DNA of 64,000 bases, taken from NCBI RefSeq assembly GCF_030846775.1, contig NZ_CP132910.1, forward strand, positions 4,281,001 through 4,345,000, in the 5' to 3' direction. Source of the stretch: Geothrix sp. 21YS21S-2 (lineage in GTDB: Bacteria > Acidobacteriota > Holophagae > Holophagales > Holophagaceae). The notes beneath the pieces were generated by a model. That model saw nothing but the letters and a program-made list of their open reading frames with translations. It ran no database searches and was not told where the DNA came from. Position numbers and translations under genes: made by a program. Positions 14,516 to 36,285 of this stretch are shown piece by piece (the stretch's first letter is position 1; each line of letters opens with the position of its first letter).

Positions 14516-14595
14516 AGGTCCCGTAGCTCAGGGGATAGAGCGACCGCCTCCTAAGCGGTAGGTCGGCAGTTCAATTCTGCCCGGGACCACCAGCC
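14516..14595 (+). repeat. attL: left 80-bp direct repeat
   Basis: Identical to 36206-36285, covering the entire tRNA plus one base before and three after. The two flanks diverge at once (AAAA/GCGC before, ACGC/GCGT after). Because the repeat spans the whole tRNA, integration leaves two intact genes rather than one gene plus a 3' fragment. Confidence 0.93.
14517..14592 (+). tRNA. tRNA-Arg (anticodon CCT), left copy
   Basis: Cloverleaf: acceptor arms GGTCCCG and CGGGACC, D arm GCTC/GAGC, anticodon stem ACCGC/GCGGT with loop CTCCTAA (anticodon CCT), T arm GGCAG with loop TTCAATTC, then discriminator A and an encoded CCA. All stems pair. It is preceded by a TACAAT box and followed by a hairpin terminator inside the island. 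Confidence 0.97.
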
Positions 14596-22790: not shown

Positions 22791-23600
22791 TCACCTAATC
22801 ATTGATATTCCGCGAAGATTCTCGACAACATTCTTCCTTACATTTGAAACAACCTCTCGCTGTTCGTCCGGCAAAAGCGACTCCATTCTTGTTAAGTGCT
22901 TTGCCAAACCATCCACGTCTGGATAGATATTGGCGGGATGGATGCCAATAATTTCTAACTGTTTCCGAATTTTGGGGAATGATGCAGCGGGAATAATGAG
23001 TTTTGTCAATTTGGATGAATATTCGGGATCTTCTTCGAGCGGAACAAAACACCCTTGCTCTTCATTTAGATAATGCACGGTAAAACACCCGGCTTGATTG
23101 ACGATACGGCTGGTGACACATCGCGGGAAATATATCTTTGTTGACTTGATAACAAAAGGACTCGTCTCAGGCACGGGGCTGACGCTCTGGCGGTCTGAAT
23201 ATTCTAAAATCCAAACAACCCCATGCTGTTCGCTTTCGGGTTCCTCCGGGAGGGGTTGATATGGGTTCTCAACGGCGAAAAAAAGTGCAATCAGAGGATT
23301 TAGAGACCAGTCGAGTAGTCTTGTTGCCATCCAGTGATGTTGGGCTAGGGCGAGCCATTCCCAGTCAATTTCTCCTTGCACTTGCGATCCGTTTAGCAAG
23401 AGGGGGGCGCGCCTTTTGAACTCGTTGAACATCCTTGATTCTTTGTCAAGAATGCTTCCAAATTGGAACTCTTTCCTTGCCAATTTGGGAGCGAGGCTCC
23501 AATTTCTGCCTTGCCCTCGGAAAAGGGTTTTGTCGGGTTTTGAAACCGAAAATACCGATTTAATATAGTGATTAATTGTAGGAATGCTCTTGATTCTCAT
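22791..23600 (-). CDS. FRG domain-containing protein
   Basis: A 269-aa protein with a full FRG domain (named for its Phe-Arg-Gly motif): TLFRGQGRNWSLAPKLARKE near residues 25-44, then LALAQHHWMATRLLDWSLNP followed by LIALFFAVEN near 83-112, the two most conserved blocks. FRG proteins occur often in phages and defence islands, and their biochemical activity is not established. ATG 23600 overlaps the stop of the 153-aa gene by four bases, and that gene lies 15 bases after the XRE-ImmA gene, so the three form an operon read leftwards. The C-terminal 80 residues (ASFPKIRKQLEIIGIHPANI) are typical of the family. Confidence 0.85.
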   Translation of the reverse strand: MRIKSIPTINHYIKSVFSVSKPDKTLFRGQGRNWSLAPKLARKEFQFGSILDKESRMFNEFKRRAPLLLNGSQVQGEIDWEWLALAQHHWMATRLLDWSLNPLIALFFAVENPYQPLPEEPESEQHGVVWILEYSDRQSVSPVPETSPFVIKSTKIYFPRCVTSRIVNQAGCFTVHYLNEEQGCFVPLEEDPEYSSKLTKLIIPAASFPKIRKQLEIIGIHPANIYPDVDGLAKHLTRMESLLPDEQREVVSNVRKNVVENLRGISMIR

Positions 23601-24058
23601 GGGTGCTCTTTTAGATCTTCAAGCGTCTTCGGCTGGATATGAAATTGATTGATGCAGTCCTGAAATGCTCTTGGGAGCAACTTGGAGCGCAAGTGCCGCC
23701 TGCTGAATAAGGGGGAGTGCCCAGAGTCAGCGGCATCGGCGATCACGAAAAGGTCTGATTGAGGGCTGGAGTCGTCTGGGTCTACAAGTTCAGGAAAGGC
23801 AGATAAGATTTCAACTAGTTTTGCCTGAACTGATTCGGATGGAATTCCGAAACCATCAGGGAAACTATCCTTGATGGCTTTGGCGGCTTCGTCGTCTATT
23901 TTCTCTAGCTCGTCTAGGACTGGGCGGACTGCAGTCCATGCCCCATGGTTAAGAGTCCCAAGGCGTGCTATGGCTTTAGTGGAATTGCCATCAGCCTCAT
24001 GCCAAACCTGAACGAGCGCTGAAGCGGAGAGGGTTAAGTGTTTTGGTGTTCTTGTCAT
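23597..24058 (-). CDS. Unknown protein between XRE-ImmA and FRG genes
   Basis: A 153-aa protein starting at ATG 24058. Mostly helical; LSASALVQVWHEADGNSTKAIARLGTL near the start looks like a small helical bundle, possibly a helix-turn-helix. The C-terminus has DLFVIADAADSGHSPLFSRR. No family recognised. Position in a three-gene overlapping operon (ImmA-like, this gene, FRG) suggests a joint role, possibly toxin-antitoxin or anti-phage. Confidence 0.6.
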   Translation of the reverse strand: MTRTPKHLTLSASALVQVWHEADGNSTKAIARLGTLNHGAWTAVRPVLDELEKIDDEAAKAIKDSFPDGFGIPSESVQAKLVEILSAFPELVDPDDSSPQSDLFVIADAADSGHSPLFSRRHLRSKLLPRAFQDCINQFHIQPKTLEDLKEHP

Positions 24059-24073
24059 GATTCAGCCCCGTGC

Positions 24074-25267
24074 TTAACTGTTTTGAGCCAGTAAATAGGT
24101 CCCGATTTTTGCAATGTGCTTGGATCTAATCCCAAGGCAATTGGATGCGTCAACAAAGTCAATGGAGCCTCGCCCGAGGGCTTTGATTACAAGAGTGCTC
24201 AACGCTTTCCCATTACGGTTTACGGCAAGAATGTGATATGGAATAATTACGGGTCCGCGTTCTTTATTTGCTTCTTCTGAAAGAACTTTGATTCTCGCAA
24301 GATGCTGCTTTTGGCATGATTCGGTGATGTAACCCAGGGATTGTAATCTGATTAAGAGCATTTCAGCGCTAACCGAAAAATGTGCGGTCATTTCTTTCAA
24401 TTGGGCTGTCGTAACAGTCTTTCCCTGGCTAGGAGTTGCAATATCATCCCAACAGTTACCCAAATCATCTTCTGGGCATAAAAATTCGGCAGCAACACGA
24501 TTGCAGATGGTCTCAAGGAATTCTCTTGTCCGGTATCGTTTTGCTGTCGCGCCCTTCCCGATAGAAATAATGTGAGCAAGGTGACACAATTCGTGTATCA
24601 GGGTGAAAATCTTGCCATTTTGAGCATCTGAACAGTTCAGCACTATTACAGGAAACGGCAGGGCAGGAAGAACGAAACCTCGAAAAATATCAACTGGAAC
24701 CTTCTCTGAGTTCGGTTCATTTTGAATTACAAAAATCCCCAGAGCCTCAATTGCTTCCTTCCAATGTCGAAGTGCCTTGTCTGGCTTTTTCCAGGAAAAT
24801 TGTTCCGACAAAGAGATTCCGACCAGGGCTCTGAGTTCTTTGGCTATTCGGCGATGGTTGTCGTCAAAGACAATGGCGCATTTATCAATTTTGTTAATAA
24901 CCGTGTCTAAATTTTCAAAGCATGACCGCAATACCTTCTTCTTTTGACTTTCGACTCTTCTCCTAAGGGCACTAATTTGATCAGCGACTTCCTGCTCAAA
25001 TGCACTCAGTGATCTGAACTCAATTTCAACGTCTTCATGGTCTGGTGGCAGCGGAAGGAAAAAAAGGGGCAATGCTCGCTTAAGGGTTTTTGCAAGTAGC
25101 TGAAGTTGCGGGAACGAGGGGATGATGCTCCCTGATTCGTATCCCTCCAGTCTTTCTATCGGGATTTTTGTCCGCCGAGAGACTTCTTCCATGGTCAAGT
25201 GGGCAGAACACCGGGACCATTTGATCAAGGCTGGGTTACATTTTGCAAGAATCGCTCGTGCCGCCAT
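24074..25267 (-). CDS. XRE-type regulator fused to ImmA/IrrE metallopeptidase
   Basis: A 397-aa protein. Residues about 20-75 form an XRE helix-turn-helix (LTMEEVSRRTKIPIERLEGYE then GSIIPSFPQLQLLAKTLKRAL). The zinc peptidase motif HELCHLAH lies at about residues 225-232, followed by RVAAEFLCPEDDL, which supplies the third ligand region. This ImmA/IrrE (M78) layout is found in regulators that cleave repressors on damage or infection and in toxin-antitoxin-like loci. ATG 25267 is chosen because AGGAG lies upstream; ATG 25288 has none. It is the first gene of the operon with the 153-aa and FRG genes. The region is AT-rich relative to the chromosome. Confidence 0.85.
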   Translation of the reverse strand: MAARAILAKCNPALIKWSRCSAHLTMEEVSRRTKIPIERLEGYESGSIIPSFPQLQLLAKTLKRALPLFFLPLPPDHEDVEIEFRSLSAFEQEVADQISALRRRVESQKKKVLRSCFENLDTVINKIDKCAIVFDDNHRRIAKELRALVGISLSEQFSWKKPDKALRHWKEAIEALGIFVIQNEPNSEKVPVDIFRGFVLPALPFPVIVLNCSDAQNGKIFTLIHELCHLAHIISIGKGATAKRYRTREFLETICNRVAAEFLCPEDDLGNCWDDIATPSQGKTVTTAQLKEMTAHFSVSAEMLLIRLQSLGYITESCQKQHLARIKVLSEEANKERGPVIIPYHILAVNRNGKALSTLVIKALGRGSIDFVDASNCLGIRSKHIAKIGTYLLAQNS

Positions 25268-25393
25268 GCTTCGCTCACTCCTGGACATGCTTGAGGACGT
25301 ATGCGCATGATTTTACATTAAGCAAAGAGCTGGAGTTTGAAAATATCGTAGTCATTCCGCCAGACGGGAATGGGCTAGCAAAACCAGGAGACC

Positions 25394-26030
25394 CCCCGGC
25401 TCTGCCGGGGTGGCAGTAGAAGTTTGACATTTCAGGGAGTCCATCCTGGAATCTCCGATTGTGAGCCGCCAAGCACACGAAAGGAGGTCCAAGATGGACT
25501 CGTCGGAAAGTCTAAGCCACTCCCGGTGGGAGTGTAAGTACCACGTGGTGTTTATCCCAAAATGTCGAAGAAAGACGCTCTACGAGAAGTTACGACCACA
25601 TCTGGGTGAGGTGTTCCGGCAACTGGCCGCGCAGAAGGAATGCCGGATCGAGGAGGGGCACCTCATGGCCGATCACGTCCATATTCTGATTTAGATTCCG
25701 CCAAAGTATGCCGTGGCGCAGGTGATCGGGTTCATCAAGGGTAAGAGCGCGATTCACCTCGCCCGCGTGTATGGGGAGAGGAAGCGCAACTTTGTAGGCC
25801 AGAACTTCTGGGCGCGCGGCTACTTCGTATCGACAGTGGGCCGAGATGAGACGGTCGTGCGCGAATACATCCGAAAACAGGAAAAGGAGGACGAGCGATT
25901 TGAGCAACTGTCCCTGTTTCGCTGACCAGGCACCTCCAAGGTGCCCATCCTATGATTCGGGGCCGCGTTAGCGACCCCGACCAGCCGCTTTGAGCGGCTC
26001 ACGTTTTAAACCCCCCGGCTCTGCCGGGGG
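25394..26030 (+). mobile_element. IS200/IS605-family element, decayed
   Basis: Bounded by two nearly identical subterminal hairpins: CCCCGGC/GCCGGGG with TCT loop at 25394-25410, and CCCCCGGC/GCCGGGGG with TCT loop at 26012-26030. It holds one Y1-transposase gene with an internal stop. Exact ends cannot be fixed, since this family makes no target duplication. The right end abuts the stop codon of the Cys-His-Asp gene at 26036. A further hairpin (AGCCGC/GCGGCT) lies at 25983-26000. Confidence 0.8.
25494..25925 (+). pseudogene. tnpA: IS200-type Y1 transposase (tnpA) with in-frame stop
   Basis: The reading frame encodes a full TnpA: WECKYHVVFIPKCRRKTLYE, the HUH motif in HLMADHVHILI, then IPPKYAVAQVIGFIKGKSAI and the catalytic Tyr in VREYIRKQEKEDE. 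TAG at 25692-25694 replaces the residue after HILI (usually Ser), and the same frame resumes at once. A single-base change (for example TCG to TAG) would explain it. ATG 25494 has AAAGGAGG six bases upstream. Unless the stop is suppressed the enzyme is inactive. Confidence 0.9.
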
Positions 26031-27244: not shown

Positions 27245-29776
27245 ATGGATCAGGACATCAAGAGGACTCTCTGGGCTGCCGCTGACAAACTGCGGTCCAA
27301 TATGGATGCCGCCGAATACAAGCACTTGGTCCTTGGGTTGGTGTTCCTGAAATATATCTCCGACGCCTTCGATGAGCGCCGGAACGACCTCAAGAAAGCC
27401 GTTTCCGATCCCAAAAGCGACTTCTACCTTCCCGCCGCATCGGACAGTGACTTCCTCTGTGAAGACCGGGACTCATACGCAATGGTTCACGTATTCTGGG
27501 TCCCGCCTGTTGCGCGGTGGGAGAACATCCGGAACCAGGCAAAGCAACCAGACATTGGCAAACGGATCGATGATGCCCTCATTGCAATTGAATTGGACAA
27601 CCCACCCCTCAAAGGCATCCTGGATAAGCGTTTCGCCAGAACTCAGCTTGATCCCGGCAAGTTGGGCGAACTCATCGATCTGATTTCCTCCATCGGCTTC
27701 GGCGTGAAGGACAAGGCGGAAGACACGCTGGGCGAGGTCTACGAATACTTTCTCGGGCAGTTCGCTAACGCTGAGGGTAAGAATGGCGGACAGTTCTATA
27801 CACCGGCGTCGGTTGTGCGGCTGCTCGTTGAGGTTCTCTCGCCGAATAAGGGGAGCATCTATGATCCCTGCTGTGGTTCTGGCGGCATGTTCGTGCAGAG
27901 CGAGAAATTCGTCGAGACCCATGGCGGCAACCGGGATGACATCTCAATCTTCGGACAGGAGGTCAACCCCACCACATGGCGCCTGGTCGCCATGAATCTA
28001 GCCATCAGAGGCATAGTCGCAAACCTCGGTAAAGAGCCCGGGGATACTCTCGGTCGGGATGCCCATCCGGACCTTCGTGCCGACTACGTGCTTGCGAATC
28101 CACCCTTCAATGTCTCCGACTGGGGCGGGGAGAAACTTGAATTCGATCCCCGATGGGTCTATGGCATCCCACCAGCAGGCAATGCCAACTTCGCATGGCT
28201 TCAGCACATTCTGTGGCACCTGAATCCCTCTGGCAGCGCTGGCGTGGTGCTTGCCAATGGGTCCATGTCCTCGAACCAGAGCAATGAGAGCAACATCCGT
28301 CGCGCCATGGTCGAGGGTGATGTGGTTGAGGTGATGGTGGCTCTGCCGCCCCAGTTGTTCTTCAACACGCAGATCCCCGCCTGCCTGTGGTTCCTTGCAA
28401 AGGATAAGACTAGGAATGGGCGAAGGCGCAAGGGGGAGTTTCTTTTCATAGATGCCAGCAAGATGGGACGGCAGGAGACCCGCGTAAACCGGGTCCTCGA
28501 CGATGTAGAAATTGCAAAGATCACAAACACCGTCCATTCCTGGCGGCAGGATGGTGAGATTAAAGATCCCTACATCGATGTCCCCGGCTTTTGCTGCGCT
28601 GTGGATCTGGAAAAGATAGTGGAGCAAGCCTACGTGCTTACGCCGGGGCGGTATGTAGGTGGCGAGGGGAGGACCTGTGAAATTAATGGGGATTTTGCTA
28701 GGAGGTTGTCTCAGGTTCGAGATCAACTTGATGCGGGAGAGAAACCCAACAGCATTTCAGTGCGTGAGCTAATTGGGTGGTTTGGAGCTAAGCGTCGTAG
28801 AGCCGCTGTCGTTTGGGAAATACGACAATTGATGAACCAGTTCAAAATAACTACAGTTCCAGATTTTGAGTCAGCATATGTTGATGATTTTATAGAATTT
28901 TTTCTTCAGGATGGAATAATAACTGATGCAGTGAAGGTTGCCTCATCTTCGGTCGGAAATATTCTTGCAGGGGAAGAAAAAGAAGACGCACCAAGTGATG
29001 CCCATGTCACTGGACTATCGTTGGCTAATACCTATGTTGATCCAAGTCATCGTTTGAGTAAGCTGGACGCATCAAAAAAACCTCCCAAAACTGTCAATCC
29101 CCAGGATGATATAATTGATGCAGTCACGATCATGATGGCTTATGATTTTTCACAAGTGCCAGTGATGCAAACGCAAAGAAATCTTAAGGGTATTGTGACT
29201 TGGGACTCAATTGTAAAAAAAATAGCAATGGGGTCAAAAATGCAAGGTCCCTGTTCCGACTTTTTAGTCCCAGCCGAAGAAATTAGTATTAACGCTTCCA
29301 TTTATGATGCAATTCCTCGAATTTCTCAGCACCAATATGTTCTTGTTCGGGATGCAACCAATTGCATTAGTGGCATAGTGACCTCAAGTGATATGATGGA
29401 GCAGTTTAAGGGGCTGGCTGAGCCTTTTTTGCTGATAGGTGAAATAGAAAACTATCTCAGGCACATAATTGACTCGAAGTTTAACCTTGCTGATATTGTT
29501 TCTGCCAAAGATGCATCGGATGTTGGTAGAATAGTGACTTCAGTGGCTGATCTGACTTTTGGCGAATACGCAAGACTACTGCAGGATCCAAACAATTGGA
29601 TTCGGACAGGGATCCGTATTAGTAGGACGATTATTTGCGAATTGCTTGAAAAAGTTAGAGAAATTCGCAATAGCGTTATGCATTTCGACCCAGAACGTTT
29701 GGACGATGAAGATCTTTCAACTTTAAGGTCTGCCCGTGCACTTCTGTATAATATCTATTTATCATGTGTTGGGTAA
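27245..29776 (+). CDS. HsdM-type adenine methyltransferase fused to CBS pair and HEPN domain
   Basis: An 843-aa protein. Residues 1-475 are a type I methyltransferase subunit: N-terminal HsdM helical domain, GGQFYTPASVVRLLVEVL, SAM motif DPCCGSGGMF (207-216), catalytic NPPF (285-288), and the closing YVLTPGRYVGG. HsdM normally ends soon after this. Here the frame continues into SVRELIGWFGAKRRRAAVVW (about 505-524), a CBS pair (about 618-720), and a C-terminal HEPN-like domain with RNSVMH (Arg808-x4-His813), the metal-independent RNase motif. The DNA turns AT-rich near 28,680, exactly where HsdM ends. No hsdS is present; the next gene is a broken hsdR. GAGGG precedes ATG 27245. Confidence 0.85.
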   Translation: MDQDIKRTLWAAADKLRSNMDAAEYKHLVLGLVFLKYISDAFDERRNDLKKAVSDPKSDFYLPAASDSDFLCEDRDSYAMVHVFWVPPVARWENIRNQAKQPDIGKRIDDALIAIELDNPPLKGILDKRFARTQLDPGKLGELIDLISSIGFGVKDKAEDTLGEVYEYFLGQFANAEGKNGGQFYTPASVVRLLVEVLSPNKGSIYDPCCGSGGMFVQSEKFVETHGGNRDDISIFGQEVNPTTWRLVAMNLAIRGIVANLGKEPGDTLGRDAHPDLRADYVLANPPFNVSDWGGEKLEFDPRWVYGIPPAGNANFAWLQHILWHLNPSGSAGVVLANGSMSSNQSNESNIRRAMVEGDVVEVMVALPPQLFFNTQIPACLWFLAKDKTRNGRRRKGEFLFIDASKMGRQETRVNRVLDDVEIAKITNTVHSWRQDGEIKDPYIDVPGFCCAVDLEKIVEQAYVLTPGRYVGGEGRTCEINGDFARRLSQVRDQLDAGEKPNSISVRELIGWFGAKRRRAAVVWEIRQLMNQFKITTVPDFESAYVDDFIEFFLQDGIITDAVKVASSSVGNILAGEEKEDAPSDAHVTGLSLANTYVDPSHRLSKLDASKKPPKTVNPQDDIIDAVTIMMAYDFSQVPVMQTQRNLKGIVTWDSIVKKIAMGSKMQGPCSDFLVPAEEISINASIYDAIPRISQHQYVLVRDATNCISGIVTSSDMMEQFKGLAEPFLLIGEIENYLRHIIDSKFNLADIVSAKDASDVGRIVTSVADLTFGEYARLLQDPNNWIRTGIRISRTIICELLEKVREIRNSVMHFDPERLDDEDLSTLRSARALLYNIYLSCVG

Positions 29777-30369
29777 GGGCATTTGGTTTTGGGGACAGAG
29801 CTTTAGAAATTCCTTTCGGCTTCCCTTCTGCTGAGATCTTGGATAAAGTGCAGAACATGAAGCACCGGAATCTCACCGTAGAACTTCTTGAGCGATTGTT
29901 GAAAGACGACATCAAGGCGCGGTTCTCCACAAATGTGGTGCAGAGCGCTAGGTTCTCGGACATCTTGAAAGCCAGTCTCACGCGCTATCGCAACCGTGCC
30001 ATTGAGACCGCACAAGTCGTCGAAGAATTGATCCAAATGGCAAAGGCGTTCAACGATGCTTTCCAGCGCGGCATCGATCTAGGGCTGGCACCGGAGGAGA
30101 TGGCGTTATATGACGCTCTGGAGGATAACGAAGCCTTGGTTCGGGAACTAGGAGGCTCTGAGCTGAAGGCGATTGGACGGGAACTCCCTGACGACCGGAG
30201 GAATAACCCGAAGACTGATTCGTCCGTTCGAGAATCAGTTCGTGCCACAATGAAGGTGCGTATTAAGCGGATTTTGAAGCGGCATCGGTATCTACCGGAA
30301 ATGGAGCTTCGAGCGGTGGGGCATGTGCTGAAGCAGGCGGAAGTGCAGTCTGGGGCTTGGGTGGCATAG
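29764..30369 (+). pseudogene. hsdR: HsdR C-terminal remnant
   Basis: The frame encodes only the end of a type I restriction subunit: MKHRNLTVELLERLLKDDIK (from 29857), SARFSDILKASLTRYRNRAI, LGLAPEEMALYDALEDNEAL, and VRESVRATMKVRIKRILKRH. A complete HsdR is about 1000 aa with helicase and nuclease domains, all missing here. G+C rises again at its start. So a normal hsdM-hsdS-hsdR cluster seems to have lost hsdS and most of hsdR when the CBS-HEPN sequence came in. The open frame starts 13 bases before the upstream stop; translation from ATG 29857 is possible. Confidence 0.8.
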
Positions 30370-30381
30370 GAGTCAATCACC

Positions 30382-31164
30382 ATGCAGGAAAGTGTCGAGC
30401 AACTCCGACGATCCTTAATTGAAAAACACGCCGCCTTCCGGCAGGTTTTTGTCGAGTTATTTCATGACCTAGTCTCGTCCTCAGAACAGAATAAGGAACA
30501 ACGGATTCTCCAGACTAGAGAATCCGTTGCCCTGATATGGTCATTATTGGCTGACCGGGATCGCCCTCAATGGCTGAAATCGCTGATGGATCTTCTCTCT
30601 CGACCGCGTAGTGCTTTTCCGTATGGGAATCTTATCGATGCAATCATGCCATTGCGGGAAACCGCAATGAATCACCAGTGGGTCTTCTCTGAAGGAGTTG
30701 AGGACTCCATTGATTTTGATGAAGTATTTGAGCGCCATCGGAAAGAAAGTAAACTTGGAGAACTTTTTGATGAGGTCGTTAACATTATGACCCGAATCAT
30801 TGAAGCCCAAGGGATGGATAGCAGAGTTATTGAGGCTGTTTTAAGGCGCTTGATCCTTTTGATACAAAAGAACCGAAATGGATCTTTCTCGGCGCTTCCA
30901 ACATGGTTGAAATTTATCATTGGAGTTCTTAAGAATTTTGTTATTGAAGAGCTCCGTTCGATTCCCGTTTTAGGACCTCTCGTGACTGCTCTTGAAAAAA
31001 CGTTCGAAGAAATCCAGGATGAAGTTTCTATTGTAATGACCAAGTCCTATCACGAGTTAGAAACAAGCGTTATATCTATCGTTCCGGATATTCTCTACAC
31101 AAGATCGGGGTCAACTCTGTCCGTCCTGCAATCGACTCAACCAACCTTGAATCAGATGGGATGA
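30382..31164 (+). CDS. Helical protein of unknown function
   Basis: A 260-aa protein starting at ATG 30382, 12 bases after the HsdR remnant. Mostly alpha-helical, with a short hydrophobic stretch (LKFIIGVLKNFVIEEL then IPVLGPLVTALEKTF) that might be amphipathic or membrane-associated. No motif recognised. It lies between the HsdM-HEPN fusion and the reverse transcriptase and may belong with the former, as accessory genes are common in such loci. Confidence 0.55.
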   Translation: MQESVEQLRRSLIEKHAAFRQVFVELFHDLVSSSEQNKEQRILQTRESVALIWSLLADRDRPQWLKSLMDLLSRPRSAFPYGNLIDAIMPLRETAMNHQWVFSEGVEDSIDFDEVFERHRKESKLGELFDEVVNIMTRIIEAQGMDSRVIEAVLRRLILLIQKNRNGSFSALPTWLKFIIGVLKNFVIEELRSIPVLGPLVTALEKTFEEIQDEVSIVMTKSYHELETSVISIVPDILYTRSGSTLSVLQSTQPTLNQMG

Positions 31165-31284
31165 CGTGACCCGAGGGGGTCCGAAGAAGCATGCGCTGGC
31201 GGAAATGAGATTTGCTCCGTCTAAGGCTGGTGGAATTTGGTAAATTGCCTTGCGGAAATTGAAAGCTTGGTCTACGATCTGTCT

Positions 31285-31561
31285 GCCTTGCTAGTTGGAG
31301 ACAAGGGAAACAGTTGCAAAGTCAACCCTCAAGGTGCCCTGCACCAGGAGGCTGACCGCGACCATCAGGACGCTGAGCGCTTGGACTTCACGGTTCATGT
31401 TGTTCTCCTCCACGATGAAAGAATACTGCATCAGGCTTAAACACGCGGCGCCGCAGCAATGCGGTAACGGCTTCCTTCGGGGAGTCGGCAAACTGGGGGG
31501 AGGCAAGTGGAGTGCCGCTACCATCTTCCCCCAGTTCAGCCCTTGCCAGAGCGGCAGGGGG
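31285..31561 (+). ncRNA. Putative structured ncRNA upstream of reverse transcriptase
   Basis: The region before the RT gene contains consecutive hairpins typical of stable RNA: CCTTG/CAAGG at 31287-31307; CCGCA-GCAA-TGCGG (31451-31464, GNRA tetraloop); CTTCC-TTCG-GGGAG (31471-31484, UUCG tetraloop). Then three blocks (AACTGGGGG 31491, GGCAAG 31502, TGCCGCT 31513) find complements in the same order at 31528-31536, 31542-31547 and 31550-31556, as in interleaved pseudoknots. AAACA occurs at 31308 and 31439. RTs of the DRT2 type are preceded by a template ncRNA. The boundaries and function here are inferred. Confidence 0.5.
31291..31398 (-). CDS. Antisense small hydrophobic peptide in the putative ncRNA region
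   Basis: On the strand opposite the RT, GGAGGAG lies six bases before ATG 31398, opening a 35-aa frame: MNREVQALSVLMVAVSLLVQ then GTLRVDFATVSLVSN. It has a hydrophobic central helix. It overlaps the region proposed as RT template. It may be an independent small membrane peptide, or the reading frame of a protein made from cDNA copies as known for DRT2 (Neo), or chance. Confidence 0.3.
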   Translation of the reverse strand: MNREVQALSVLMVAVSLLVQGTLRVDFATVSLVSN

Positions 31562-32838
31562 TGGCTAGTGCTTTTTGCATTAAGCCAAGGGGTTATCTCC
31601 ATTTTGACGAGCCGTTTTTTGGACCAGGTGCACTGCGCCTGGCTTCCAATGATGGCAGGGTGACAACCTGGTCATTCATGCCGTTTATCCATACAACCAT
31701 TGAGGCACGTAAGGTAAAGAAGAAGAACGGGGCACTTACTCCTAAAGTTAAAACCCGTGATATTTATTACGCCGCCCACCGGGATGCGGCTATCTACTCC
31801 TACTATGCATACATTCTTAATGAAGCATACAACCGGTTAATTCCATCTCTTGGGCTGGATGATGTGGTCACTGCTTTTAGAAGTAATCTGCATAAGTGCA
31901 ACATCCATTTCGCGGCTGAAGCCTTTGAATTCATCAAAAACAACCCGGATTGTATGGTTTATACCTATGATGTCTCTTCGTTTTTTGACAACCTTGACCA
32001 CCGGATTTTGAAATCGCAATGGGCAAGAATCCTTGGGGTAACTCGTTTACCGTCGAACCATTATGCCGTATTCAAGTCCATAACCAAATTTTCATTCGTT
32101 GATCTTCAAGATTTATATAATACTTTTGGGATTAGCAAACATGCGCCAAAAGCAAATGGGAGAAGGCGAATCTGCACAATCCCGGAGTTTAAGTCTAAAA
32201 TCAGAGGGCAAGGACTAGTCAAGCCTAATCCGGGAGGATTTAAGGGAATTCCCCAAGGTAGCCCTATAAGTGCTGTTCTCTCGAATATCTATATGCTGCA
32301 ATTTGATACGAAGATTGCTGCTGAAGTTATTAGCCTGAACGGATTGTATCGGAGATATTGTGATGACATTATATGCATAATTCCAAAAGGGAAAAATGAA
32401 GTAGTAGCAGCCTCAATTCAGCGAGAAATAGGCATCCTTCATCTTGAAATTCATCCGGATAAATCATCTACATTTTCCTTTTCTCAAGGACTAATTGATA
32501 AGGATTCCCCTCCGTTTGTCCAGTATCTTGGATTTACATTCGACGGTAAGCGTATCGCATTAAGAGCTGGCAGTATGAGTCGTTACTATTCCAAACTTCG
32601 TGCTGCCGTTTCACTTGCCCATCAAACGAGACTGAAACACGATAGGCTTAATGGGACAGAAACACTCATCCGGAGAAAGCGAATTAATTTGAAATATTCA
32701 TATCTGGGTCGCCACAATTTTATTGCCTACGCACTAAAAGCGTCTAGGCTTACCCAAAGCGTCGCCATTAAGAGACAGATCAAAGGTCACTGGAAAAAAC
32801 TTCAGAAGGAAATTGCGAAGATTGAGTTGGTGCCTTAG
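31561..32838 (+). CDS. Reverse transcriptase of the unknown-group/DRT type (DRT2-like)
   Basis: A 425-aa RT. Catalytic blocks: motif A VYTYDVSSFFDNLDH (about residues 133-147), motif B GIPQGSPISAVLSNIYM (about 229-245), motif C RRYCDDII (YCDD about 266-269), and QYLGFTFDGKRIALRAG downstream. The N-terminal KPRGYLHFD and KTRDIYYAAHRDAAIYSYYA blocks and the lack of maturase or endonuclease domains argue against a group II intron and for an anti-phage DRT, best guess DRT2. The start is uncertain: GTG 31561 precedes the conserved KPRGY block; GTG 31507 and ATG 31678 are alternatives. Strongly AT-rich. It is single, with a structured upstream region. Confidence 0.8.
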   Translation: MASAFCIKPRGYLHFDEPFFGPGALRLASNDGRVTTWSFMPFIHTTIEARKVKKKNGALTPKVKTRDIYYAAHRDAAIYSYYAYILNEAYNRLIPSLGLDDVVTAFRSNLHKCNIHFAAEAFEFIKNNPDCMVYTYDVSSFFDNLDHRILKSQWARILGVTRLPSNHYAVFKSITKFSFVDLQDLYNTFGISKHAPKANGRRRICTIPEFKSKIRGQGLVKPNPGGFKGIPQGSPISAVLSNIYMLQFDTKIAAEVISLNGLYRRYCDDIICIIPKGKNEVVAASIQREIGILHLEIHPDKSSTFSFSQGLIDKDSPPFVQYLGFTFDGKRIALRAGSMSRYYSKLRAAVSLAHQTRLKHDRLNGTETLIRRKRINLKYSYLGRHNFIAYALKASRLTQSVAIKRQIKGHWKKLQKEIAKIELVP

Positions 32839-35065: not shown

Positions 35066-36106
35066 TCATGCCAACCCCAGCTTCTTGCCAAGCTCGTCCT
35101 GAGCCTTTCGCTTAGCACCAAGGCTAGTTTCCACATAGATCATCGTGGTCGTTACATTTTTGTGCCCAAGCATTCCTTGAACCTCGGATATGGGCGTTCC
35201 CGCCTCCGTGTGGAGGGTGGCGAAGGTGGCGCGCAGGCGGTGCTGGGTTACATTTCCGAGTTCAAGCTTCTGGCAGACTCGGTGAAGCGCTTTTTTGCAG
35301 AACTGTTGGCGATGCGGTTTGCCGTCCTCGGCTGGGAATACCCACGGACTTATGATTTTCGGCATCGCATGGATGGAGGACCAGAGCCACGAAGGGACCG
35401 GGAGGACCCGCGCTTCCTTGCCCTTTGCCTTGCCGACAATGTAGGTTTGATTGATCTGATCGAACCATTCCCATCGCATGCCTAATACTTCGCTCTCCCT
35501 CAAACCGAGCCCGATCATGACTCGCAGCATTACGGGGACATGCGGGTTCCGGGCTTCATGGTCGATTGCAAAGAGAAATTCCGAAACCTTCGCGGCATTG
35601 ATCACTGGTCGGGGCTTCTTCTGGGTTTTCAGGAACGCCACTTTGAAGGGTAGTGATTTTAGGTAACCCTGTCTGATCGCAAAATTAATCAAGAGTTTGA
35701 GTATTTTCAGCATGTCGTTCACCGTGACTGGGGATCGACCTGCTTCCAACATCTTGGAGCGAACCTGATAGACGTCCGCGTTGGTGATGCGGTCCACACG
35801 GCGATTTTCAAGGTTCGGAAGGAGCCAGATGCGCGAGACCATCTCGACGTCATACCAATGCTTGGCACTGTGCACGGGCTTATGGACCTGAAGCCAATTG
35901 TCCCGAACCGATTTCAAGGTGGGAATTTGCCTGGTCCCGCATTCCTCGTTGAGGACCTGGCGACGAAGCTCTTCGAGCACCTTCCGTGCCGTAGCGAGAT
36001 CTGTCGCCCGGGTGCTTCCTTTGAACTGCCTGCCATTGATCCGGACGCAGTAGTGGTAGTGTCCACTTGGATGCTTGGCGAGTCCGTTTTTGAATTTGGT
36101 TGTCAT
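35066..36106 (-). CDS. int: Tyrosine-family site-specific integrase
   Basis: A 346-aa integrase. The N-terminal region is an arm/core-binding domain (SGHYHYCVRINGRQFKGSTR, then a SAM-like helical segment). The catalytic domain has Arg I in GLGLRESEVLGMRW, HRLR in VTQHRLRATFATLHTEAGTP, GH in GMLGHKNVTTTMIYVETS with the nucleophile Tyr after TTTMI. These are the R-K-HxxR-H-Y residues of tyrosine recombinases. ATG 36106 has GGAG seven bases upstream and is preferred to the open frame back to 36175, which crosses the GTGCAA repeats. It lies 101 bp from attR and points into the island, as integrases of tRNA islands usually do. Confidence 0.92.
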   Translation of the reverse strand: MTTKFKNGLAKHPSGHYHYCVRINGRQFKGSTRATDLATARKVLEELRRQVLNEECGTRQIPTLKSVRDNWLQVHKPVHSAKHWYDVEMVSRIWLLPNLENRRVDRITNADVYQVRSKMLEAGRSPVTVNDMLKILKLLINFAIRQGYLKSLPFKVAFLKTQKKPRPVINAAKVSEFLFAIDHEARNPHVPVMLRVMIGLGLRESEVLGMRWEWFDQINQTYIVGKAKGKEARVLPVPSWLWSSIHAMPKIISPWVFPAEDGKPHRQQFCKKALHRVCQKLELGNVTQHRLRATFATLHTEAGTPISEVQGMLGHKNVTTTMIYVETSLGAKRKAQDELGKKLGLA

Positions 36107-36158
36107 TTCCGCTCCGGAAAGGAGCGGGGGGATCAGGGCTAAGGAATGGGAGGGGAAA

Positions 36159-36176
36159 GTGCAATAGAGGTGCAAC
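36159..36176 (+). repeat. GTGCAATAGAG repeat beside attR
   Basis: One full and one partial unit (GTGCAATAGAG then GTGCAAC) between the integrase start and the right tRNA, matching those near attL. Candidate integrase arm site; it also overlaps the probable int promoter. Confidence 0.6.
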
Positions 36177-36205: not shown

Positions 36206-36285
36206 AGGTCCCGTAGCTCAGGGGATAGAGCGACCGCCTCCTAAGCGGTAGGTCGGCAGTTCAATTCTGCCCGGGACCACCAGCC
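36206..36285 (+). repeat. attR: right 80-bp direct repeat
   Basis: Exact copy of 14516-14595. Sequence diverges immediately on both sides. Confidence 0.93.
36207..36282 (+). tRNA. tRNA-Arg (anticodon CCT), right copy
   Basis: Base-for-base identical to the left tRNA-Arg, with all stems and CCA intact. Upstream sequence (CCCAGCAAACCCGCGC) has no clear -10 box, so its expression may depend on read-through or be lost. Confidence 0.95.

Follow-up and report, generated by a model that had tools for sequence, protein, structure and literature searches.

A distant DRT2 reverse transcriptase locus on a genomic island, with a predicted 123-nt copied unit and hidden neo frame

In published DRT2 systems, the neo gene lies antisense in a stop-free unit whose length is divisible by three and which carries a ribosome-binding site (RBS) and an ATG, and its -35 and -10 elements are brought to a spacing of 17 nt across the repeat junction (PMC11100668; PMC12039810). 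Published work on DRT2 has also described the jump motif ACA as conserved among relatives of KpnDRT2, and Neo as harder to annotate in divergent clades. In the freely accessible main texts of the literature, no report of replaced DRT2 jump motifs was found. The window analyzed here, a stretch of 64,000 nucleotides, contains a distant DRT2 from a bacterial family that has been little sampled. By analogy with the described systems, its reverse transcriptase (RT) would, very probably, use part of the RNA encoded just upstream as a template for endless DNA repeats carrying a hidden toxic gene, and an island-borne DRT2 anti-phage system making 123-nt concatemers with a hidden neo gene is the best explanation of the locus and a likely one.

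The locus is localized in an integrated island of 21.7 kb (14516-36285), bounded by identical 80-bp copies of tRNA-Arg sequence (14516-14595 and 36206-36285), with an integrase gene at 35066-36175 and a GC content of 52% compared with about 70% on both sides. A tRNA-His was also called by ARAGORN at 35176-35267, antisense within the integrase gene; this call has no Rfam tRNA support and is probably false. The frame at 27245-29776 joins an HsdM methyltransferase to a CBS anti-phage domain of the DS11 type (residues 507-833; NF053863, 328 bits, cut-off 260), and it is followed directly by a free-standing type I restriction enzyme C-terminal domain (T1RH-like_C, E 1.5e-57; 29764-30369), with the remainder of HsdR not seen adjoining. 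With this HsdM-CBS fusion and HsdR-like piece upstream of DRT2, the region resembles a defence island. The frame at 30382-31164, which separates the HsdR-like piece from the DRT2 non-coding RNA (ncRNA), encodes a 260-aa protein without a match above cut-off in Pfam, NCBIfam or PADLOC. Farther upstream, a helix-turn-helix and ImmA/IrrE-type (Peptidase_M78) protein, RmrA-like in PADLOC (24074-25288), lies beside a 153-aa frame on the same strand (23597-24058), and the two may be a toxin-antitoxin-like pair. A frame at 25461-25925 appears by eye to be IS200-type transposase-like and is split by an in-frame stop near 25692.

The RT itself (31561-32838, plus strand) is a single intact frame running from a GTG at 31507 or 31561 to the stop at 32838, and it contains the motifs TYDVSSFFD, KGIPQGSPIS and RYCDD. 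Its start is uncertain: no ATG and no well-spaced RBS are present, and the GTG at 31561 is likely by alignment, yet its RBS sits too close. RVT_1 is the only Pfam domain, with no intron-type or other domain. The protein scores 497 bits against the NCBIfam Drt2 equivalog (cut-off 390) and 504 bits against PADLOC Drt2, and solved KpnDRT2 chains (9c0i, 9lje and others) match its residues 8-420 with an E-value of about 1e-95. A phylogeny of 33 DRT2-type RTs, with four further RTs as outgroup, groups it first with L010 (support 99), a locus of the same family, and then with L050 (support 91); these three are sister to the KpnDRT2-like (ACA) clade (14 rows, support 97). On these sequence comparisons, the RT is established as a genuine member of DRT2 (UG2), distant from the known ones, and we infer that this copy is active. 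The first-pass annotation had proposed a divergent, island-borne DRT2 member with the catalytic motifs YDVSSFFD, GIPQGSP and YCDD and without intron-type domains. All of this agrees with the present data: the motifs stand in an intact frame, the equivalog cut-off is passed, the tRNA-Arg repeat bounds the island that holds the locus, and in the phylogeny that it had called for, the RT is nested inside DRT2 rather than among group II introns or retrons. A whole-genome search found the RT once in the source genome, and such an RT was found in 2 of 77 genomes of the family. Seven equal-scoring RT copies (L013 and L023-L028), 454-aa frames with weak similarity to the query, were seen in a genome of the same genus (G002).

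The 276 nt preceding the RT have the layout of a DRT2-type ncRNA, consisting of a 5' handle hairpin, a template, a GCGGC/GCCGC pseudoknot and a 13-bp tower. A candidate promoter of the ncRNA-RT transcript, identified by consensus match (TTGCGG, 17 nt, TACGAT; 31250-31278, plus strand), would start transcription near 31284, and its position relative to the handle hairpin is similar in relatives; the ncRNA is expected to reach from there to about 31545-31560. The handle hairpin (CCTTG ... CAAGG; 31285-31306, plus strand) has a counterpart in the relatives compared, where it immediately precedes the jump site. Downstream of the template, the scaffold (31437-31543, plus strand) is a divergent RT-12 RNA (RF03016), matched over the full length of the model (1-117) from jump site 2 onward. 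The score of 26.8 bits (E 0.015 over 501 bases) is under the gathering score of 44.2 and is backed by position, full-length coverage and comparison with relatives. The same model scores about 80 bits in E. coli and viral DRT2 loci, just before the RT and at the known scaffold position, which indicates that RT-12 is the DRT2 scaffold. It outperformed on the window a covariance model of our own, R1, which was built from KpnDRT2-like scaffolds and gave no match in the window or in L010. A comparison of the upstream region with plasmid DNA gave similarity no better than chance.

Conservation of the scaffold is observed directly in its order of elements, which in relatives runs from jump site 2 to pseudoknot strand 1, hairpins and a tower that carries pseudoknot strand 2 in its loop. 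In the window, all on the plus strand, strand 1 (GCGGC, 31445-31449) is followed by a GNRA-loop hairpin (CCGCA-GCAA-TGCGG, 31451-31464) and a UUCG-loop hairpin (CTTCC-TTCG-GGGAG, 31471-31484), both evident from sequence and folding, and by the tower (31491-31536; stem 31491-31503/31524-31536) with strand 2 in its loop (GCCGC, 31514-31518). The tower stems of the window (AACTGGGGGGAGG/TCTTCCCCCAGTT) and L010 (AACTGAGGAGGGT/ACCCTCCTCAGTT) differ by compensatory changes. The pseudoknot pair varies on both strands by clade (GCGGC/GCCGC, TGCGGT/ACCGCA, GACCC/GGGTC, AAGTGC/GCACTT, AGGATT/AATCCT). Single pairs may be due to chance because they came from a complementarity search; the exact GCGGC/GCCGC pair shared at a common position by the window, L010, L002, L051 and L072 is stronger evidence for the pseudoknot. 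The upstream 286 nt fold at -117.9 kcal/mol; 200 shuffled sequences average -103.7 (z -2.6), and one of them folds as low. The structured, probably template-bearing upstream RNA of the first-pass annotation is supported by the RT-12 match, its GNRA and UUCG hairpins are present, and its structure is conserved in homologues; of its three parallel block pairs, which came without coordinates, the GCGGC/GCCGC pair common to relatives is the one that could be traced.

The register of the copied unit was set by alignment with L002 and L010. Jump site 1, TTG (31314-31316, plus strand), is the equivalent of ACA-1 by positional alignment with L010 (TTGCA) and L002 (ACA), and jump site 2, TTA (31437-31439, plus strand), is the equivalent of ACA-2, lying 11 nt from the complement of the -10, a distance shared with L002, L010 and the ACA clade. 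The predicted copied unit (31316-31438, minus strand) has 123 nt, or 3 x 41, and in the register that the promoter spacing dictates, its neo frame is stop-free over 41 codons per repeat: SLMQYSFIVEENNMNREVQALSVLMVAVSLLVQGTLRVDFA. On the same strand, the -35 TTGACT (31320-31325) meets the -10 TATTCT (31420-31425) only across the repeat junction, for which the predicted sequence is TTGACTTTGCAAGCCTGATGCAGTATTCT and the spacer 17 nt; the promoter is imperfect, with 5 of 6 matching positions in the -35 and 4 of 6 in the -10. An RBS, GGAGGAG, and the start ATG follow (31396-31411, minus strand; ATG at 31398-31396), with the ATG 21 nt after the -10, matching L010 and the CGTT clade. A 123-nt unit fits the published DRT2 requirements as far as sequence can tell. 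It was the top candidate both with jump homology scored and with it left out, and a scan that ignored frame and RBS did not single it out. A strict geometric filter applied to both strands of the 64-kb window returned one other such site, so that the unit pattern alone is not unique and its position just before a DRT2 RT lends it credibility. The weakest feature of the unit is its jump homology, which is not ACA and has only TT exact (TTG compared with TTA), not significant taken alone (p 0.62).

By analogy with KpnDRT2, from which we infer copying, phage trigger, transcription and toxicity, a single upstream promoter would drive both ncRNA and RT, and the RT would bind the scaffold formed by pseudoknot and tower. 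Template copying by the RT would then begin just 5' of jump site 2 (31437) and run to jump site 1, close to the handle hairpin, after which the cDNA end would re-anneal at jump site 2 and repeated copying would yield concatemers of the 123-nt unit. During phage infection, the concatemer is expected to become double-stranded, each junction setting the -35 and -10 at the 17-nt spacing, and transcription would give a stop-free mRNA in which each repeat has an RBS and an ATG. Translation of Neo, at 41 aa per repeat, would lead to cell arrest.

Other readings of the locus differ from this one in the junction, in the unit or in the class of the RT. With TTG at site 1 and TTA at site 2, the match between the jump sites could have decayed and repeats could form poorly, leaving a weak or dead system with intact RT and scaffold. 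The 2 nt of homology in the window compared with TTGCA twice in L010, together with published mutants in which breaking the homology of ACA-1 and ACA-2 abolished defence (PMC11100668), point in this direction. However, the RT frame keeps all its catalytic motifs, the neo frame is open across its 41 codons, and in another locus, L007, a perfect promoter and neo frame go together with jump homology of likewise only 2 nt, and such decay is considered unlikely. The AAACA copies at 31308 and 31439, 131 nt apart, to which attention had first been drawn, are indeed present, and they offer a longer exact match (5 nt) that contains ACA as in KpnDRT2. The repeat DNA made from a 131-nt unit between them would not be read as an endless open frame: 131 is not a multiple of three, TAA arises at the junction and the promoter spacer would be 25 nt. 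The upstream region contains 34 exact 5-mer repeat pairs, which puts the AAACA pair at chance level, and the pair is absent from the nearest relative, L010. A role as template borders is thus not upheld, and a 131-nt unit appears very improbable. A unit one base longer (132 nt) has an open frame; it was rejected on account of the 26-nt promoter spacer that it would give.

Weak matches to group II intron, retron and other RT models are given by the common RT core, and an RT of one of these kinds, or of another unknown group, might be imagined beside an unrelated upstream RNA. The scores in bits, however, are 69 for group II RT/maturase (cut-off 300), 44 for the retron St85 (cut-off 235), and 87 for the runner-up class UG17 compared with the 504 for Drt2 in PADLOC, and the tree places the RT inside DRT2; this reading is hardly credible. 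A DRT2 system with a 123-nt unit that is not delimited by AAACA is the preferred reading.

How far the ends of the unit may depart from ACA can be seen from a survey of 33 DRT2 loci, in which junctions were picked by promoter and end homology with no frame rule. A confident junction was found in 24 of 33, and the unit was divisible by three and stop-free in 20 of these 24. Shuffled upstream regions passed in 71 of 330 cases, 19 of the 71 being divisible by three, and 5 of the 71 both divisible by three and stop-free. Since loci are related within clades, the effective independent cases are fewer than 20. The jump motif differs by clade: ACA in KpnDRT2-like loci, ACAG in L128, AGAT in L051 (Photobacterium) and TTGCA in L010. 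Three members of one clade, L059 and two loci on Rhizobiaceae plasmids, have CGTT, and loci from Bacillota and phages have GTAT, TAT or ATT. Among seven loci added later, L135 (Azospirillum) has GAAG and a 132-nt unit and L134 (Paracoccus), weakly, AA and a 141-nt unit; both units are stop-free and divisible by three, and the remaining five loci had no clear outcome. No clear unit was seen in L136, L137, L140, L053, L067, L008 and L065, which come from Lactobacillales, cyanobacteria and Bacteroidota, and scans of viral contigs with single proteins added no new DRT2 loci. An exception is L050 (Nitratidesulfovibrio, 1150-1300), which has a perfect junction promoter, ACTG at both ends and a unit of 145 nt, not divisible by three, so that the reading frame would shift from one repeat to the next until a stop is reached. 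On balance, we lean toward the view that DRT2 jumping depends on matched template ends rather than on ACA, with matched pairs replaced by clade and the unit kept divisible by three; the window, with two matched nucleotides, would be an edge case. Pairwise replacement of the ends in units divisible by three would make hidden neo genes readable in divergent DRT2 clades, by the rule of a promoter spacing of 17, matched ends and a unit divisible by three. It also gives the template-jumping model a testable prediction, namely that repeat synthesis should survive when both ends are exchanged for another matched pair and should cease when a single end is exchanged.

Compared with KpnDRT2, the window has an RT of the same family and length, an ncRNA of about 280 nt preceding the RT and the same order of handle, template, pseudoknot and tower (PMC11100668; PMC12039810), as well as a cross-junction promoter with a 17-nt spacer and an antisense neo with RBS and ATG in a unit that is a multiple of three. 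It differs in its RT, about 40-44% identical to members of the KpnDRT2 clade, in a jump site of TT(G/A) instead of ACA, in a 123-nt unit encoding an unrelated Neo sequence, in the absence, by eye, of a basal stem involving jump site 2, and in a scaffold under the RT-12 gathering score. The Rfam RT-12 family itself is matched over its full length at 31437-31543, as in the E. coli and viral DRT2 loci, but at a far lower score than theirs. Closest is L010 (same family, genome G048), whose RT is 48% identical and the nearest relative of the window RT, and which shares the blocks TTGCAAAGnCAACCCTC and TACnGCATCAGGCTT at the two template ends, the same pseudoknot and the distance from -10 to ATG, whereas it keeps TTGCA intact at both ends and has a 114-nt unit and a tower stem with compensatory changes.
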